A stretch of DNA of 64,000 bases, taken from positions 1,488,001 to 1,552,000 of the forward strand of contig NZ_JAGSHX010000006.1 of the NCBI RefSeq assembly GCF_018138715.1. Reading direction: 5' to 3'. Below, in pieces: positions 56,989-63,544 of the stretch (position 1 is its first letter; each line of letters opens with the position of its first letter). The position numbers and the translations under genes were made by a program. The notes below the pieces were generated by a model. The model was not told the DNA's origin and did no database searches. It was given only the letters and a program-made list of their open reading frames with translations. This DNA comes from Streptomyces asiaticus. Its GTDB lineage: Bacteria > Actinomycetota > Actinomycetes > Streptomycetales > Streptomycetaceae.

Positions 56989-57954
56989 ATGGTTCGATGG
57001 GGATACACGATGATGACCGAGCAGGCCGGTCCACGTCAGCTCGTCGACGACGTGGTCCGGGCCGAGCAGGTCGGGTTCGACTTCTCGGTGACGTCCGACC
57101 ACTACTTCCCGTGGCTGGACTCCCAGGGGCACGCCCCGTACGCCTGGAGCGTGCTGGGCGCCGCCGCGCAGGCCACGTCCTCGATCCCGCTGACGACGTA
57201 TGTCACCTGCCCCACCGTGCGCTACCACCCGGCGGTGGTGGCGCAGAAGGCGGCGACGCTCCAGCTGCTGTCCGAGGGGCGGTTCCGGCTGGGGCTCGGG
57301 TCCGGCGAGAACCTGAACGAGCATGTGGTCGGGCAGGGCTGGCCGTCGGCGGATGTGCGGCACGAGATGCTGGAAGAGGCGATCGAGATCATCCGGGCGC
57401 TGTTCGGCGGTGGCTATGTCAACCATCACGGCACCCACTACGACGTCGACTCGGCGAAGCTGTGGGATCTGCCGGACCAGCCGCCGCCCATCGGCGTGGC
57501 CGTCTCCGGGCCGCAGTCCTGCCGGCTGGCCGGGCGGCTGGCCGACATCCTGATCGCCACGGAGCCCAAGTCCGAGCTGGTGGGGGACTTCGAGCGCAAC
57601 GGCGGCGGCGGGAAGCCCCGGATCGGCCAGATCCCGGTCTGTTACGACCCCGACCGGGACGCGGCGATCGCGCGCGCCCATGACCAGTTCCGCTGGTTCG
57701 GGAGCGGCTGGAAGGTCAACTCGGAGCTGCCGGGGCCCGCCTCCTTCGCGGGCGCCACCCAGTTCGTCCGGCCCGAGGACGTGGCCGCGTCCATTCCGTG
57801 CGGTGATGATGTCGGGGAGTTCACGGAGCTGATCCGGCCCTTCGTCGACGCGGGCTTCACCGATGTCGCCCTCGTCCAGATCGGCGGCGACCATCAGCGG
57901 CCGTTCCTGGACTGGGCCGAGAAGCGGCTGCTGCCCGCGCTCAGGGAGCTATAG
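56989..57954 (+). CDS. LLM-class F420-dependent oxidoreductase
   Basis: A 321-residue luciferase-like TIM-barrel enzyme of the F420-dependent branch, similar to F420-dependent glucose-6-phosphate dehydrogenase-like proteins. Visible text: AEQVGFDFSVTSDHYFPWLD, SSIPLTTYVTCPTVRYHPAVVAQKAATLQLLSEGRFRLGLGSGENLNEHV (typical of TIGR03557-type members), and FVDAGFTDVALVQIGGD. It uses reduced cofactor F420 on an unknown substrate. The stop codon region CTATAG is shared with the convergent LysR gene. Its closeness to the sulfur cluster may be coincidental. Confidence 0.88.
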   Translation: MVRWGYTMMTEQAGPRQLVDDVVRAEQVGFDFSVTSDHYFPWLDSQGHAPYAWSVLGAAAQATSSIPLTTYVTCPTVRYHPAVVAQKAATLQLLSEGRFRLGLGSGENLNEHVVGQGWPSADVRHEMLEEAIEIIRALFGGGYVNHHGTHYDVDSAKLWDLPDQPPPIGVAVSGPQSCRLAGRLADILIATEPKSELVGDFERNGGGGKPRIGQIPVCYDPDRDAAIARAHDQFRWFGSGWKVNSELPGPASFAGATQFVRPEDVAASIPCGDDVGEFTELIRPFVDAGFTDVALVQIGGDHQRPFLDWAEKRLLPALREL

Positions 57955-58881
57955 CCCCCGGGGCGCCCGGGGAGTCGCAGGAGTCTCCGCGCGCCGTACG
58001 AAGAGCTCGTGCAGGTCGCGTACGGCGCGCGGCACCGAGCCCGAGCGGCGGCGCTGGACCATCAGCAGCACCTCGGTGGCCTCGCCGTCCGCGAGCGTCC
58101 GGTGGGTGATCGCGCCCCCGCGCTCCAGGGGGTCGCCGATGACGCTGAAGTCGGGGAGCACGGTGACACCGAGCCCCTCGGCCACCATCAGCTTGCCCAT
58201 CTCGGCCCCGTCGGTGGAGTACGAGAAGGACGGGGTGCGCCCGGCCAGCAGCCGGTGGATGAAGCGGTGCATCAGATAGCCGGAGCGCATCACGATCAGC
58301 GGCTCCCGCCCGTCCAGCAGATCCGCCGCGCTCACCGTCGGCCGGGCGGCCAGCGGGCTGTCCGGGCGCAGACAGACCACCGGGCGGCCGCGCAGCAGCA
58401 CGGTGGTCTCCAGGGCGGGCGGAACGTCGTCGCCCTGGAGGCAGTTGACCAGCCCCAGGTCGAAACTCCCCTCCAGCAGCGCCCGGTGGATCTCGGCCTG
58501 CTGCGCGCCCACCACCTCGACCTGGGTCGCCGGGTGGGTGGCGCGGAACTCCCGGACGGCCGGGATCAGCAGCGGGACGGTCGCGGTGTTGACCGTGCCC
58601 AGCCGGATCATCCGGCTGACCCGGTGCTGGTCCCCGGCGGCGCCGCGCAGCCGGTCGACGGCCTCGATGACGCCCGCGATATGCGGCAGCAGCTCCCGTC
58701 CCTCCGCGCTGATCGTCGCGCCGGAGCGCTTGCGCTCCAGCAGATCCACGCCGAGTTCGCGTTCGAGATTGCGCACCGTCTCGCTGAGCGCCGGCTGGGA
58801 CAGATGCAGTTCCTCGGCGGCGCGGCGGAGCGATCCGAGGCGGGTGACGGCGGCGATGTATTCCAGCTGTTCAATTCGCAC
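57949..58881 (-). CDS. LysR-family regulator, probable activator of the organosulfur operon
   Basis: A 310-residue LysR regulator. The HTH is VRIEQLEYIAAVTRLGSLRRAAEELHLSQPALSETVRNLERELG, then the effector domain (MIRLGTVNTATVPLLIPAVREF, EGLGVTVLPDFSVIGDP). GTG 58881 is preferred to GTG 58890 because AGGG lies eight bases upstream. It is divergent from the sfnG-ssuD operon, and organosulfur operons in other bacteria are run by CysB/Cbl/SfnR-type activators, so control of that operon is a sound inference. A perfect 19-base palindrome lies between them. The ligand is unknown. Confidence 0.9.
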   Translation of the reverse strand: MRIEQLEYIAAVTRLGSLRRAAEELHLSQPALSETVRNLERELGVDLLERKRSGATISAEGRELLPHIAGVIEAVDRLRGAAGDQHRVSRMIRLGTVNTATVPLLIPAVREFRATHPATQVEVVGAQQAEIHRALLEGSFDLGLVNCLQGDDVPPALETTVLLRGRPVVCLRPDSPLAARPTVSAADLLDGREPLIVMRSGYLMHRFIHRLLAGRTPSFSYSTDGAEMGKLMVAEGLGVTVLPDFSVIGDPLERGGAITHRTLADGEATEVLLMVQRRRSGSVPRAVRDLHELFVRRAETPATPRAPRGL

Positions 58882-58991
58882 ACTGCGCACCCTGCCCGCG
58901 CGGGCCCGCCCGCTTCAAGGGAATCCCTGTCACGGTCTCATGAATACCGACTCACGCCCCGGCCCGCCTCCCGGGTAATCTCGAAGCGGGC

Positions 58992-59010
58992 GCCGCGGAA
59001 ATTCCGCGGC
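58992..59010. promoter_or_regulatory. perfect 19-bp palindrome GCCGCGGAAATTCCGCGGC
   Basis: Nine-base arms around a central A, 43 bases upstream of the putative -35 of the leader/sfnG promoter and about 110 bases before the LysR start. Position and symmetry fit an activator or repressor binding site. Confidence 0.65.
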
Positions 59011-59052
59011 CCGGCCCACGCGTCCGGGATATGGAATGACACCCGGGCCTTC

Positions 59053-59082
59053 TTGACCGGCAGGACTTCCCCCTGGTTGGAT
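59053..59082 (+). promoter_or_regulatory. putative promoter of the leader peptide and sfnG operon
   Basis: TTGACC (59053-59058) and TTGGAT (59077-59082) with an 18-base spacer. Transcription would begin around 59089-59090, which is the first base of the leader peptide ATG, implying a leaderless transcript. Confidence 0.5.
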
Positions 59083-59089
59083 CGGTGAC

Positions 59090-59170
59090 ATGAAGCGACA
59101 GGACCTCACGCGGCGACGCCACGTCGACCTCGCGCGTGTCTCCAGCGCGTCCTGTTGCTGTCCGGCCTGA
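59090..59170 (+). CDS. Cys-rich leader peptide, 26 aa (putative attenuator)
   Basis: A 27-codon frame too short for usual gene callers. The peptide carries RRRHVDLARVSSASCCCP at its C-terminal end, followed by Ala and stop. The RRHxDLxRxxSxxC pattern matches the short putative leader peptides that precede sulfur and cysteine genes in streptomycetes, as I recall them. Polycysteine leader peptides have been shown to control sulfur genes by attenuation in mycobacteria. Ribosomes stalled at three successive Cys codons when cysteine is scarce would favour expression of the downstream operon. It lies 234 bases before sfnG. The ATG coincides with the predicted transcription start. The regulatory mechanism here is inference. 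Confidence 0.8.
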   Translation: MKRQDLTRRRHVDLARVSSASCCCPA

Positions 59171-59330
59171 CCCGCCGTACGGGTCCGAGCGAGCCCTGAG
59201 GGATCGCCTCCGCTTCGCTCCCCGTCGCCTCCCATGATCGGGAAAGGCTTCTAGCCGCCGCCACCGAAAAAATGCGGCCGCGCCGTCCCGCCTTTGCGCC
59301 CATTCGCGCTGCCCGGTCTTTCCGCGCCCC

Positions 59331-59373
59331 CGCCCCGGATGAATTCCGCTCGACGCCGGGGCGCCGATTCGCC
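59331..59373 (+). promoter_or_regulatory. mutually exclusive hairpins before sfnG (possible attenuator)
   Basis: CGCCCCGG (59331-59338) can pair perfectly with CCGGGGCG (59356-59363). The end of that right arm, GGCG (59360-59363), can instead pair with CGCC (59370-59373) around CCGATT. Such competing stems between a leader peptide and the first structural gene are what attenuation needs. Pairing was found by eye only. Confidence 0.35.
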
Positions 59374-59404
59374 ATGCCCGTATTCGTTCCACCGGGAGTT
59401 CCTC

Positions 59405-60514
59405 ATGCCCGCAGAACCCCTCCGTTTCGCCTATTGGGTACCCAATGTCAGCGGCGGACTGGTCACCAGCACCATCGAGCAGCGCACCGACTGGGGCTAC
59501 GACTACAACCGCGATCTGGCCGTGCTCGCCGAGAACAACGGCTTCGACTACGCCCTCAGCCAGGTCCGCTACATGGCCAGCTACGGCGCCGAGTACCAGC
59601 ACGAGTCGACCAGTTTCAGCCTCGCGCTGCTGCTGGCCACCCAGCGGCTGAAGGTCATCGCCGCCGTCCACCCCGGACTGTGGCACCCCGGCGTCCTGGC
59701 CAAGCTGGGTGCCACCGCCGATCACCTGTCCGACGGGCGGTTCGCGGTGAACGTGGTCAGCGGCTGGTTCAAGGGCGAGTTCACCGCGCTGGGCGAGCCC
59801 TGGCTGGAGCACGACGAGCGCTACCGCCGCTCCGAGGAGTTCATCCGGGCGCTGCGCGCCATCTGGACGCAAGACCACGCCGAACTGGCCGGGGACTTCT
59901 ACCGGATCCGTGACTTCTCCCTCAAGCCCAAGCCGCTGAGCAGCCCCGGGCGCCCGCATCCGGAGATCTTCCAGGGCGGCAACTCCACCGCCGCCCGCGC
60001 CATGGCGGGCCGGGTCTCGGACTGGTACTTCAGCAACGGCAAGGACTTCGACGGCGTCACCGAGCAGATCAGGGACGTCCGCGCCTCCGCCGCCACCGTC
60101 GGCCGCCCCGCCCCCGGCTTCGCCCTCAACGCCTTCCTCATCGCCCGCGACACCGAGGCCGAGGCCCGCGAGACCCTCCGCGAGATCGTCGCCAAGGCCG
60201 ACACCGAGGCCGTGGCCGGATTCCGTGGCGCCGTCCAGCAGGCGGGCCGGTCCACCGCCGACGGCAAGGGCATGTGGCAGGACTCCTCCTTCGAGGACCT
60301 GGTCCAGTACAACGACGGCTTCCGTACGGGGCTGATCGGCACCCCCGAGCAGATCGCCGAGCGCATCGTGGCGTACAAGCGGCTCGGCGTGGACCTCTTC
60401 CTCCTGGGCTTCCTGCACTACCTGGAGGAGGTCGAGTACTTCGGCGAGCGGGTGCTGCCGCTGGTCCGCGAGCTGGAGGCGGAGCTGCCGGAGCCCGTGC
60501 CCGCGCTGCCCTGA
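59405..60514 (+). CDS. sfnG: SfnG-type dimethylsulfone monooxygenase (LLM flavin enzyme)
   Basis: FMNH2-dependent monooxygenase of 369 residues that converts dimethylsulfone to methanesulfinate. The LLM barrel text is typical of SfnG: RFAYWVPNVSGGLVTSTIEQRTDWGYDYN at the N-terminus, KVIAAVHPGLWHPGVLAKLGAT, RFAVNVVSGWFKGEF and LGEPWLEHDERYRRSEEFI. The C-terminus carries GTPEQIAERIVAYKRLGVDLFLLGFLHYLEE. ATG 59405 with GGGAG six bases upstream; the open frame extends further but only into the leader region. First structural gene of the sulfur operon, needing FMNH2 from the reductase encoded next. Confidence 0.9.
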   Translation: MPAEPLRFAYWVPNVSGGLVTSTIEQRTDWGYDYNRDLAVLAENNGFDYALSQVRYMASYGAEYQHESTSFSLALLLATQRLKVIAAVHPGLWHPGVLAKLGATADHLSDGRFAVNVVSGWFKGEFTALGEPWLEHDERYRRSEEFIRALRAIWTQDHAELAGDFYRIRDFSLKPKPLSSPGRPHPEIFQGGNSTAARAMAGRVSDWYFSNGKDFDGVTEQIRDVRASAATVGRPAPGFALNAFLIARDTEAEARETLREIVAKADTEAVAGFRGAVQQAGRSTADGKGMWQDSSFEDLVQYNDGFRTGLIGTPEQIAERIVAYKRLGVDLFLLGFLHYLEEVEYFGERVLPLVRELEAELPEPVPALP

Positions 60515-60590: not shown

Positions 60591-61145
60591 ATGGCCACCG
60601 TCCTGTCCCTCTCCGGCTCCCCCTCCGCCACCTCCCGCACCGCCCGGCTGCTGCGCCATCTGGACGCCCGGCTCACCGCCCAGGGCCATCATGTGATCCC
60701 ACTCGACGTCCGCACCCTGCCCGCCGCCGCGCTGCTCGGCGCGGACTTCTCGCATCCGGCCATCGTCCGGGCCAAGGCGCTGGTCGAGCAGGCGGACGGG
60801 CTCGTGGTGGGGACGCCGGTCTACAAGGCCGCCTACTCCGGGCTGCTGAAGTCCCTGCTGGACCTGTTGCCGCAGTACGCGCTCGCGGGCAAGACCGTGC
60901 TGCCGCTGGCCACCGGTGGCACCACCGCCCATGTCCTGGCCATCGACTACGCATTGCGGCCGGTGCTGTCCTCCATGGGCGCGGCCCATATCGTCCAGGG
61001 CTGGTTCACCCTGGACAAGGACATCACGGTCGAGCCGGACGGCGGGGTGAGCGTGGCGGCGGGGGCCGCCGAAGCGCTGGAGCAGGTCGTCGACCAGTTC
61101 TCGGCGGCGCTCGGCCACACCACCGTACTGGCCGCGGCGAGCTGA
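60591..61145 (+). CDS. ssuE: NAD(P)H-dependent FMN reductase (SsuE type)
   Basis: A 184-residue flavodoxin-like reductase. The FMN phosphate loop is LSLSGSPSATSRTARLL, followed by GTPVYKAAYSGLLKSLLDLLP, the SsuE/MsuE signature that contacts the flavin ring, and TVLPLATGGTTAHVLAIDYALRPVL. It supplies reduced FMN to the sfnG and ssuD monooxygenases and perhaps to the sfnB product. ATG 60591 with AAGGG six bases upstream; the next gene starts two bases after its stop, so translation is coupled. Confidence 0.92.
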   Translation: MATVLSLSGSPSATSRTARLLRHLDARLTAQGHHVIPLDVRTLPAAALLGADFSHPAIVRAKALVEQADGLVVGTPVYKAAYSGLLKSLLDLLPQYALAGKTVLPLATGGTTAHVLAIDYALRPVLSSMGAAHIVQGWFTLDKDITVEPDGGVSVAAGAAEALEQVVDQFSAALGHTTVLAAAS

Positions 61146-61147
61146 CC

Positions 61148-62347
61148 GTGTCGTCCCTGCCCGAGCCCGCCCATGTCATCGCCGATGACACCGAGGCGCT
61201 GAAGGTGGCCGCGGCGCTGGCCGAGGAGTTCCGTACCGGCGCCGCCGAGCGCGACGCACGGCGCCGGCTGCCGCGTGCCGAACTGGACCGGCTGTCCGCG
61301 TCCGGGCTGCCGGCGATCACCGTCCCCGCGGAGTACGGCGGGGCGGACGTGTCGGCCGTGACCCTCGCCGAGGTGTTCCGGCTGCTCGCCGCCGCCGACG
61401 CCAGCCTCGCCCAGATCCCGCAGAGCCACTTCGTGTACATCAATGTGCTGCGCCGTCAGGGCACGCAGGCGCAGCAGGCGTTCTTCTTCGGCGAGGTGCT
61501 GGCGGGGAAGCGGTTCGGCAACGCCCAGTCGGAGGCGGGCACCCGCCACATCCAGGACATCCGCACCCGCCTCGCCCCGGCCGCCGACGGCTCGTACACC
61601 CTGACCGGTGTCAAGCACTACTCCACCGGCGCGCTGTTCGCCGACTGGATCCCGGTGCTGGCCCGCGCGGAGGACGACGACCTGCACGTGGCCTATGTGC
61701 CACGGGACGCGCCCGGTCTGACCGTCGTGGACGACTGGGACGGCATGGGCCAGCGCACGACCGCGAGCGGCACCGTCCGGCTGGAGGCCGTGCCCGTCCC
61801 AGCCGACCGGGTCGTACCGCACCATCTCACCTTTCGCGGGCCCCAACTGCACGGCGCGGTAGCGCAGTTGCTGCACGCGGCCATCGACGCCGGGATCGCC
61901 TCGGGGGCACTGGCGGAGGCGGTGGCCTTCGTCCGCACCAAGAGCCGCCCCTGGTTCGAGAGCGGCTTCGAGACCGCCGCCGAGGATCCGCTGCTCATCC
62001 AGCGCTTCGGCGAGCTGGCCCTCCAGGTCCGGGGCGCCGAGGCCCTGCTGTCCGCCGCCGCCCGGGCCGTGGACACCGCCCGTGGCCACCTCGACGAGGA
62101 CACCGCCGCCGAGGCGTCGATCGCGGTGGCCGCGGCCAAGGTGGCGGCGGCCACCGCGGCCGTGGAGACGGGCAGTTCGCTGTTCGAGGTGTCCGGCACC
62201 CGCTCGGCCCTGGACGCTCTGGGCCTGCACCGCCACTGGCGGGACGCCCGTACCCACACCCTGCACGACCCGGCCCGCTGGAAGGTCCAGCACATCGGCC
62301 GCTATGTGCTGAACGGCACGAAACCGCCCCGCCACGGCCTTCTGTAG
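61148..62347 (+). CDS. sfnB: SfnB-family acyl-CoA dehydrogenase-like sulfur acquisition enzyme
   Basis: A 399-residue flavoprotein of the acyl-CoA dehydrogenase/DszC fold, SfnB type. Segments: LSASGLPAITVPAEYGGADVSAVTLAE, LAQIPQSHFVYINVLRRQGT, FGNAQSEAGTRHIQDIRTRL (where acyl-CoA dehydrogenases have their substrate loop), YTLTGVKHYSTGALFADWIPVLA, and SSLFEVSGTRSALDALGLHRHWRDARTHTLHDPARWK. DszC-like relatives are FMNH2-dependent S-oxygenases, so it may act on methanesulfinate or another organosulfur intermediate rather than an acyl-CoA. GTG start two bases after the reductase stop. Confidence 0.88.
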   Translation: MSSLPEPAHVIADDTEALKVAAALAEEFRTGAAERDARRRLPRAELDRLSASGLPAITVPAEYGGADVSAVTLAEVFRLLAAADASLAQIPQSHFVYINVLRRQGTQAQQAFFFGEVLAGKRFGNAQSEAGTRHIQDIRTRLAPAADGSYTLTGVKHYSTGALFADWIPVLARAEDDDLHVAYVPRDAPGLTVVDDWDGMGQRTTASGTVRLEAVPVPADRVVPHHLTFRGPQLHGAVAQLLHAAIDAGIASGALAEAVAFVRTKSRPWFESGFETAAEDPLLIQRFGELALQVRGAEALLSAAARAVDTARGHLDEDTAAEASIAVAAAKVAAATAAVETGSSLFEVSGTRSALDALGLHRHWRDARTHTLHDPARWKVQHIGRYVLNGTKPPRHGLL

Positions 62348-62383: not shown

Positions 62384-63544
62384 ATGTCCCTCACCTTCCA
62401 CTGGTTCCTGCCCACCAACGGCGACAGCCGCCATGTCGTCGGCGGTGGCCATGGCACCCCCGTCACCTCGGCCGGAGGGGACCGTCCGCCATCCGTCGGC
62501 TATCTCTCCCAGATCGCCCGCGCCGCCGAACACCTCGGCTTCGCCGGTGCGCTGACCCCGACCGGCGCCTGGTGCGAGGACGCCTGGCTGACCACCGCGA
62601 TGGTCAGCCAGCACACCGAGCGGCTGAAGTTCCTGGTGGCGTTCCGCCCCGGCTTTCTCTCGCCCACCTTCGCCGCCCAGATGGCCTCCACCTACCAGCG
62701 GCAGACCGGCGGACGGCTGATGCTCAACGTGGTCACCGGCGGCGAGAGCCAGGAGCAGCGCGGCTACGGCGACTTCCTCGACAAGGAGGCCCGCTACGCC
62801 CGCACCGGCGAGTTCCTGGGCATCGTCCGCGACCTGTGGGACGGCAAGACCGTCGACCACACCGGCGAACACCTCCATGTCGAGGGCGCCAAGCTGGCCC
62901 GGTTCCCCGACCCGATCCCCCAGGTCTACTTCGGCGGCTCGTCCCCCGCCGCCGGTCAGGTCGCCGCCCGCCACTCCGATGTCTACCTCACCTGGGGCGA
63001 GCCGCCCGCCCAGGTCGCGAAGAAGATCGCCTGGATCCGCTCCCTCGCCGCCGAGCAGGGCCGTACGATCCGCTTCGGCATCCGGCTGCACGTCATCACC
63101 CGCGACACCGCCGAGCAGGCGTGGGCCGAGGCACGCCGACTGCTCGACGGCTTCGACCCGGAGACCGTGCGCTCCATCCAGGCCGGCCTCGGCCGCAGCG
63201 AGTCCGAGGGCCAGCAGCGCATGCTCGCCCTGCACGGCGGCAGCCTGGACAACCTCGAGATCTACCCCAACCTCTGGGCCGGTGTCGGCCTGGTCCGCGG
63301 CGGCGCGGGCACGGCGCTGGTGGGCAGCCACGCCGAGGTCGCCGAGCGGATCACCGAGTACCACCGCCTCGGCATCGACGAGTTCATCCTGTCCGGCTAT
63401 CCGCACCTGGAGGAGGCGTACTGGTTCGGCGAGGGCGTCCTGCCCCTGCTGCGACGGCAGGGCCTGTGGTCCCACCCCTTCCAGCCCGCCGCCCCCGAAC
63501 AGCCCACCGTGCAGGTCCCCTTCGCGGCTGCCGGGAGCTCCTGA
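62384..63544 (+). CDS. ssuD: SsuD/MsuD-type FMNH2-dependent alkanesulfonate monooxygenase
   Basis: A 386-residue LLM-class monooxygenase cleaving the C-S bond of alkanesulfonates to sulfite and an aldehyde. Typical text: FHWFLPTNGDSRHVVGGGHG, ARAAEHLGFAGALTPTGAWCEDAW (containing the conserved Cys), RLKFLVAFRPGFLSPTFAAQMASTYQR, LMLNVVTGGESQEQRGYGDF and FILSGYPHLEEAYWFGEGVLP near the C-terminus. With SfnG producing methanesulfinate, it would complete release of sulfite from dimethylsulfone. 36 bases after sfnB; last gene of the operon. No sulfonate ABC transporter is present in the window. Confidence 0.93.
   Translation: MSLTFHWFLPTNGDSRHVVGGGHGTPVTSAGGDRPPSVGYLSQIARAAEHLGFAGALTPTGAWCEDAWLTTAMVSQHTERLKFLVAFRPGFLSPTFAAQMASTYQRQTGGRLMLNVVTGGESQEQRGYGDFLDKEARYARTGEFLGIVRDLWDGKTVDHTGEHLHVEGAKLARFPDPIPQVYFGGSSPAAGQVAARHSDVYLTWGEPPAQVAKKIAWIRSLAAEQGRTIRFGIRLHVITRDTAEQAWAEARRLLDGFDPETVRSIQAGLGRSESEGQQRMLALHGGSLDNLEIYPNLWAGVGLVRGGAGTALVGSHAEVAERITEYHRLGIDEFILSGYPHLEEAYWFGEGVLPLLRRQGLWSHPFQPAAPEQPTVQVPFAAAGSS

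Follow-up and report, generated by a model that had tools for sequence, protein, structure and literature searches.

A fixed UGU cysteine codon in a putative leader ORF ahead of the sfnG operon of Streptomyces asiaticus

The frame ahead of sfnG and its neighbourhood

In front of the genes for dimethylsulfone and sulfonate scavenging of Streptomyces asiaticus lies a 26-residue reading frame with a cluster of cysteine codons near its end, which raises two questions: is this frame a regulatory leader and, if so, which of its features would do the sensing? The frame (MKRQDLTRRRHVDLARVSSASCCCPA, 59090-59170 on the forward strand of the window, i.e. the whole 64,000-nucleotide stretch of DNA that was analysed) runs from ATG to TGA and is backed by orthologues and by NCBIfam matches below cut-off. 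It contains the codons for RRRHVDLAR (59111-59137), a motif conserved at the peptide level whose synonymous sites vary across leaders, and three cysteine codons, TGT TGC TGT, at 59153-59161. Three cysteines in a row are found in 2 of the 548 short ORFs (10-60 amino acids) of the window. The first-pass annotation had placed a 26-residue frame with three cysteine codons between a LysR gene and sfnG, and this location proved exact.

Downstream, all on the forward strand, come an untranslated spacer of 234 nt (59171-59404), the Shine-Dalgarno (SD) sequence GGGAG of sfnG (59394-59398), sfnG itself (59405-60514; dimethylsulfone monooxygenase, TIGR04021, 624.7 bits against a cut-off of 382.95), the gene of an NADPH-dependent FMN reductase of the SsuE type (60591-61145; TIGR03567, 224.4 bits against 164.05) and sfnB (61148-62347; sulfur acquisition oxidoreductase, TIGR04022, 568.7 bits against 430.9). 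They are followed by the gene of an SsuD-like alkanesulfonate monooxygenase (62384-63544), which scores below cut-off in two models (TIGR03565, 457.7 bits against 518.2; NF001939, 470.4 bits against 510). The LysR-type regulator is divergent (57949-58890 on the reverse strand; PF03466 and PF00126). Pfam holds no model for the leader peptide, and an Rfam scan of 58850-59500 returned nothing meaningful, its one match lying far under the gathering score.

The frame is preceded by a probable leaderless promoter on the same strand, with a −35-like box, TTGACC (59053-59058), and a −10-like hexamer, TTGGAT (59077-59082), that are separated by an 18-nt spacer; the hexamer lies 7 nt before the ATG, which is 37 nt from the start of TTGACC. 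A scan for the leader promoter with a strict sigma-70 consensus gave no match. The distance from the box to the ATG is kept in relatives: when 83 Streptomyces loci were compared, 9 had no ATG in range, and 67 of the remaining 74 have TTGAC starting 36 or 37 nt ahead of the ATG and a hexamer that ends in AT, the other 7 being without TTGAC. Because this spacing is constant, the leader mRNA is probably leaderless, with its start point at the ATG, and the geometry thus agrees with the promoter that had been proposed to start transcription on this codon.

Within the genus, the frame accompanies sfnG closely. The gene was found in 35 of 150 genomes of a Streptomyces draw, and an orthologous peptide is encoded ahead of it in all 35, which settles that the frame is a real ORF rather than a chance one. 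A draw that overlaps with this one comprised the best 80 of 586 named loci, the closest of which is that of S. rugosispiralis (98% identity); here, the leader precedes sfnG in 60 of 60 Streptomyces loci, 59 of them recognized by pattern and one (L126) missed by the pattern but sharing its contig with L030, which has the leader. Close relatives with the operon and without the frame, which would have spoken against the leader, were therefore not seen among these 60 loci. Outside Streptomyces, 9 of the 20 sfnG loci in the same best 80 of 586 carry a leader (in Actinacidiphila, Nocardia, Goekera, Actinokineospora, Actinomycetospora, Saccharothrix and an unclassified member of the Pseudonocardiaceae), and the pattern detected none in the other 11 (seven Actinomadura, two Microbispora and two Gordonia), nor in 13 of the 14 new sfnG loci of a draw from the phylum. 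Altogether, 24 of 94 sfnG loci (80 named and 14 from the phylum draw) have no leader by pattern, and a rescan to the locus edge was empty as well. A separate observation is an sfnG-type leader (LDLTRRRHVDLARVSSAACRTAA, L233) in a genome (G087) without sfnG at E 1e-115.

The leader family and its cysteine codon

The peptide scores 25.4 bits against NF042933, the Ms5788A-family cysteine-rich leader (cut-off 45, E 8.4e-6), 23.2 bits against NF042934, named cis_reg_atten (cut-off 27, E 3.7e-5; 19.8 bits in a six-frame search), and 17.7 bits against NF042936 (cut-off 45), so that it stays under the cut-off of all three models. The sfnG leaders of two other genomes, G056 and G067, pass NF042934 with 31.4 and 30.9 bits, their positions matching L028 and L055. 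NF042934 is described as a ‘putative leader peptide’, with neither a tested function nor a codon rule. By our reading of its hits, the family consists of an RxHVDLxR core and a cysteine at a fixed spacing, and both are found in the present leader as RRHVDLAR-VSSAS-C. The spacing from core to cysteine is identical in 117 of the 119 parsed leaders from family searches. The model matches and the synteny agree with the proposal of the first-pass annotation that the frame is a leader of the known actinobacterial cysteine kind before a C-S bond cleaving operon.

The same annotation had described a polycysteine leader with three consecutive cysteine codons, and such a run is not what the orthologues conserve: the number of cysteines ranges from one to three among 83 Streptomyces sfnG leaders (one in 21, two in 45, three in 17), and the two extra codons of S. 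asiaticus (TGC and TGT, 59156-59161 on the forward strand) are not kept in relatives. The constant element is VD(L/F)xR followed by a cysteine six residues after the arginine, which in the present leader corresponds to the UGU codon at 59153-59155 on the forward strand, with T as the next base. We propose this codon as the sensor. Across the sfnG leaders, the cysteine at this position is encoded by UGU in 92 of 92 distinct sequences, and the next base is always a pyrimidine (T in 49, C in 43). In the wider family, searched with protein models that are blind to codons, it is UGU in 116 of 117 leaders from 44 genomes, whereas the other cysteine positions of the same leaders have 94 UGC and 31 UGU (Fisher's exact test, 2.4e-38). 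A pyrimidine follows the fixed UGU in 111 of 116 family leaders, compared with 170 of 411 cysteine codons in genes. When identical peptides are merged, the fixed position comprises 110 UGU, 1 UGC and 1 non-cysteine codon.

The rule was seen in the sfnG leaders, in the S. asiaticus genome and in one early draw, which together account for 31 of the 119 parsed leaders; the other 88 were fetched afterwards, and the fixed codon is UGU in 87 of the 87 that have a cysteine there. A draw with NF042936 (30 loci, 29 parsed, 27 with the cysteine, including the repeats L329, L332 and L339) gave UGU in 27 of 27, of which 24 are new, with a pyrimidine next in all. Its other cysteine positions have 23 UGC and 19 UGU, a smaller contrast, and in the sfnG leaders UGU is common at the other positions too (29 of 85). 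The background frequency of UGU is 85 of 413 cysteine codons in 133 S. asiaticus ORFs, which were picked with a simple rule based on GC content by codon position.

These counts depend on the following choices. The sfnG set consists of 92 distinct stretches, identical ones having been merged; L030 and L126 were excluded from it by a length limit, and L030 also has TGT. The family set consists of 123 stretches, four of which were not parsed: L231 and L193, read by hand, have TGT, and L257 and L011 have no cysteine at the position. Two of the 119 parsed leaders (L259 and L013) lack the cysteine, and the sole non-UGU codon among the remaining 117, which include the window's own leader (L014), is that of L182. 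Of the 25 family hits in the S. asiaticus genome, 18 were used; L017, L021 and L023-L027 were left out, none of them having a cysteine at the position. From the NF042934 search that yielded G056 and G067, we used the rows over cut-off and the returned loci and left out two sfnG rows.

The commonest codon accounts for 65%, 72%, 70% and 61% of leaders at the V, D, L and R positions of the core, respectively, and for 99% at the cysteine. As synonymous codons vary at V, D, L and R and not at the cysteine, the VD(L/F)xR core seems to be maintained as a peptide sequence and the cysteine as a codon. For the leader as a whole, the four-fold sites have a conservation of 0.774, compared with 0.682 (sd 0.066, max 0.832) for windows of sfnG. 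A strong RNA-level constraint on the entire leader is not supported, as its four-fold sites fall within the range of the sfnG windows. A separate feature of the arginine stretch is that its second codon (59114-59116) is CGA in 65 of the 83 Streptomyces sfnG leaders, and CGA makes up 2.7% of the arginine codons in ORFs of the S. asiaticus genome.

A proposed cysteine-dependent pause and its alternatives

The tRNA genes of S. asiaticus (67 Rfam matches) include a single cysteine anticodon, GCA, in two clearly different genes on contig C6 of the genome (G000 C6:1299257-1299327 and C6:3538104-3538175; L348 and L354). This anticodon reads UGC by Watson-Crick pairing and UGU by wobble pairing, and 3′ pyrimidines are known from nonsense-suppression work to weaken codon reading. 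The fixed UGU and the pyrimidine that follows it are in line with a reading as a weaker decoding context. For attenuators, the choice among codons has been attributed to isoacceptors that differ in their charging (PMC1183508). Since both cysteine codons are read by anticodon GCA, selective charging offers no ready explanation for the choice of UGU.

Combining these findings, we propose that 59090-59170 regulates the sfnG operon in cis as a leaderless ORF, in which a cysteine-dependent pause at UGU would raise sfnG expression, a reading to which we assign, from sequence comparisons, a probability of about 0.7. In this model, ribosomes would begin translating the leader directly at the 5′ end of the message and, when charged tRNA-Cys is scarce, would pause as the fixed UGU occupies the A site. 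The wobble-read UGU with its pyrimidine neighbour would be the sensor, the RRxVDLxR segment, which would sit 5 to 12 residues away from the peptidyl-transferase centre, may strengthen the pause, and the pause would raise expression of the operon from sfnG onwards. We infer the pausing, its cysteine dependence, the direction of control and the role of the nascent chain, as well as a direct control of sfnG by the supply of Cys-tRNA, from the conserved features described above. The model commits to the cysteine-dependent pause as the input alone; the output step may be control of translation or of transcription. It is left between these two modes because, at the S. asiaticus locus, the cysteine tract shares four pairs with the SD region, the accessibility of the latter is flat upon simulated stalling, and a U-tailed terminator was not seen. 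If the model is true, replacing UGU by its synonym UGC should weaken the response despite the shared anticodon, and sensing by a single cysteine codon becomes directly testable and needs an explanation beyond selective tRNA charging.

A bolder version, which we advance tentatively and consider somewhat doubtful, extends to the actinobacterial cysteine leaders in general: they might be conditional arrest peptides in which RRxVDLxR in the exit tunnel acts together with one weakly decoded cysteine codon, the polycysteine run being optional. Such leaders would sense the strength of decoding, to which the sulfur-dependent modification state of tRNA-Cys perhaps belongs, and would thereby report sulfur status in addition to charging.

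Among the alternatives, an outcome by transcription attenuation, in which read-through competes with termination (intrinsic without a U-tail, or Rho-dependent) in the 234-nt spacer, is a possibility that we consider unlikely, if not markedly so. Hairpins do form 3′ of the leader stop in the predicted fold of the S. asiaticus locus and in the related group of leaders (GAGGGAAACCCUC), where a group denotes similar leaders, as known from similarity and not from a tree, and the excerpted S. lividans reannotation describes hairpins lacking a U tract behind several leader ORFs (PMC8079986). Nevertheless, no U-tailed terminator-like site was found in 58900-59500, and the sequence and length of the spacer are strongly divergent between relatives.

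According to the model for mycobacteria, as outlined in the excerpted reports, an RNA structure hides the downstream ribosome-binding site until ribosomes stall on cysteine codons and open it (PMC9031893, PMC13236596 and PMC4633059, the last being Shell et al.). Applied to sfnG, the cysteine codons would constitute an anti-SD arm, from which a ribosome stalled on cysteine would free the SD sequence. Many orthologues are in line with this. In 31 of 92 loci, the cysteine tract can form an uninterrupted Watson-Crick helix of at least 8 pairs with the SD region of sfnG (10 or 11 pairs in 23 loci), and the pairing is significant against shuffled flanks (p<0.01) in 29 of 92; the folds of L029, L034 and L044 give it a probability of about 1. 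In this pairing group, the Ser-Cys-Cys codons CUCCUGUUGC perfectly complement the SD region GCAACAGGAG, and two loci over the NF042933 cut-off have the same arrangement, with UGUUGC opposite GCAACAGGAG. The pairing occurs, however, almost exclusively in a single set of leaders that resemble each other. At the S. asiaticus locus, the two regions share 4 contiguous pairs, and simulated cover of the UGU by a ribosome changes the SD accessibility from 0.28 to 0.25. Even within the pairing group, simulated stalling raises the accessibility from under 0.1 to at least 0.15 in 7 of 15 loci, the others remaining flat or falling (in L041 from 0.39 to 0.17). Covariation is weak as well: the helix is kept in L032 with a changed pair, but a C-A mismatch occurs at that pair in L046, L052, L040, L104, L128 and L131. 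The masking mechanism of the published type fits many orthologues and not the S. asiaticus locus; as a general rule, pairing of the cysteine tract with the SD region was rejected, failing in S. asiaticus and in about two thirds of the sfnG loci, and as the explanation of the present leader we regard it as unlikely.

Another hairpin was considered. In the minimum free energy fold of the S. asiaticus locus, AGCGACAGGAC (59094-59104 on the forward strand), a possible alternative hairpin arm, pairs with GTCCTGTTGCT (59149-59159) over 11 bp with one G-U, which is not significant (p 0.05). The cysteine tract can pair with leader codons 2 to 5 in the leader's own group, with modest statistics. As a general switch, a hairpin of the 5′ arm with the cysteine tract was rejected, reaching p<0.01 in 1 of 92 loci, and it is kept as a lead.

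A third alternative accounts for the UGU rule itself, stating that UGU is kept not by decoding but by a constraint on the RNA, either pairing with an RACA element or a protein-binding site. RACA shows a mild downstream enrichment, being present in 30 of 54 UTRs compared with 23.0 (sd 3.7), and RACAGG is found in 7 compared with 1.8 (sd 1.4). In 8 of 54 cases, the UGU window can form a helix of 7 bp or more with its own UTR, compared with 6.6% for other UTRs, and in one sfnG group UGU pairs with the SD region. On the other hand, 24 of the 54 UTRs have no RACA, the mean helix length with the own UTR (5.22) is hardly higher than with other UTRs (5.11), and the codons ahead of UGU vary widely. Given the weak enrichment, we rejected pairing with RACA as the sole reason for UGU; as RACA is slightly enriched downstream, RNA pairing may nevertheless contribute to the rule. 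Overall, an RNA constraint in place of decoding appears quite improbable.

Finally, a trans-acting small protein, or a conserved ORF without a regulatory role, is very improbable: conservation at the peptide level and four-fold sites that are not exceptional relative to sfnG windows would suit it, but the leader stays between the promoter and sfnG, its C-terminal tail is variable, and one synonymous position is fixed as one cysteine codon, a restriction that a protein acting in trans would not require.

Related leaders in other bacteria and elsewhere in the genome

With the proposed cysteine-dependent pause at UGU, dimethylsulfone and sulfonate scavenging in Streptomyces would join the operons that are fronted by cysteine leaders. 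The sfnG leader is a further case of a known kind, and the main interest lies in the family-wide UGU signature, which works at the codon level and is able to find and define such leaders. Mycobacterial polycysteine leaderless ORFs are reportedly described by Canestrari et al. 2020 (Mol Microbiol, doi 10.1111/mmi.14498). Analogous to Ms5788A and the mycobacterial leaders, the S. asiaticus frame is a short ORF with a leaderless-type promoter, an RRxVDLxR core, cysteines near the C-terminus, three of them consecutive, and sulfur genes next to it (sfnG, the SsuE-type reductase, sfnB and the SsuD-like gene). One group of sfnG leaders shares with two Ms5788A-family loci the pairing of the cysteine tract with the SD region. 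The present leader differs from the Ms5788A family in its score under the NF042933 cut-off, in a cysteine run that is not conserved (a single cysteine in 21 of 83 Streptomyces orthologues), in having sfnG downstream, and in its four pairs at the SD region, which do not amount to a structure masking the ribosome-binding site and opened by stalling. With NF042934, the leader has the core and the spacing in common and differs in its score below cut-off.

Two other known systems offer partial parallels. The uORFC-8-2 leader of cysS in Rhodobacterales is also an upstream ORF with conserved cysteine codons and presumed ribosome-mediated attenuation; it differs in having two tandem cysteine codons, a dominance of UGC and an intrinsic terminator, and a VDLxR core is not described in the excerpted text (PMC8632094). 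In the leu attenuator with its rare CUA codons, a synonymous regulatory codon likewise sets the sensitivity; there, according to the excerpt, the effect depends on selective charging of isoacceptors (PMC1183508), whereas here both tRNA-Cys genes have the anticodon GCA. Neither the UGU rule nor an sfnG leader was found among the literature matches listed, which are mostly titles and abstracts, with Canestrari et al. 2020 outside their scope. The excerpted reannotation of S. lividans describes eight leader peptides, none with a VDLxR-type core (PMC8079986).

Further members of the family are present in the 11.9-Mb genome of S. asiaticus (G000), in which the family search gave 25 hits, 8 of them over cut-off. 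A fixed cysteine is found in 16 of 17 parsed leaders, and its codon is UGU in 16 of 16. Leaders within a genome may share a common origin, although they differ at their other synonymous sites. The genes behind 15 other leaders were inspected by Pfam, one of them being without a hit, and include ThiS, a cysteine dioxygenase, two luciferase-type monooxygenases, an ABC permease, an NMT1-type binding protein, a dicarboxylate symporter, a peptide-type binding protein and DUF4395. Six of the genes match NCBIfam models, all below the curated cut-offs: nitrite/sulfite reductase, taurine dioxygenase, NtaA/DmoA monooxygenase, flavin reductase, SsuC permease and sulfurtransferase. The set is rich in sulfur types and comprises other genes too.

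Some of these leaders stand apart. One with three UGU codons (L004, G000 C6:2252861-2252914) precedes a gene of cysteine dioxygenase type I, which would be unexpected if cysteine shortage induces; this odd target counts against cysteine shortage always being the inducer. Leader-like peptides of the type LTRRLHIDLLR without the fixed cysteine (L011, G000 C1:632194-632238; L013, G000 C6:343765-343812; and L257) could be read as degenerate or differently tuned leaders. On the 1.3-Mb contig C1, seven family hits, L011 among them, lie within about 33 kb (G000 C1:608391-641026), and the genes behind the leaders of this cluster include a taurine-dioxygenase-like one and monooxygenase-like ones.
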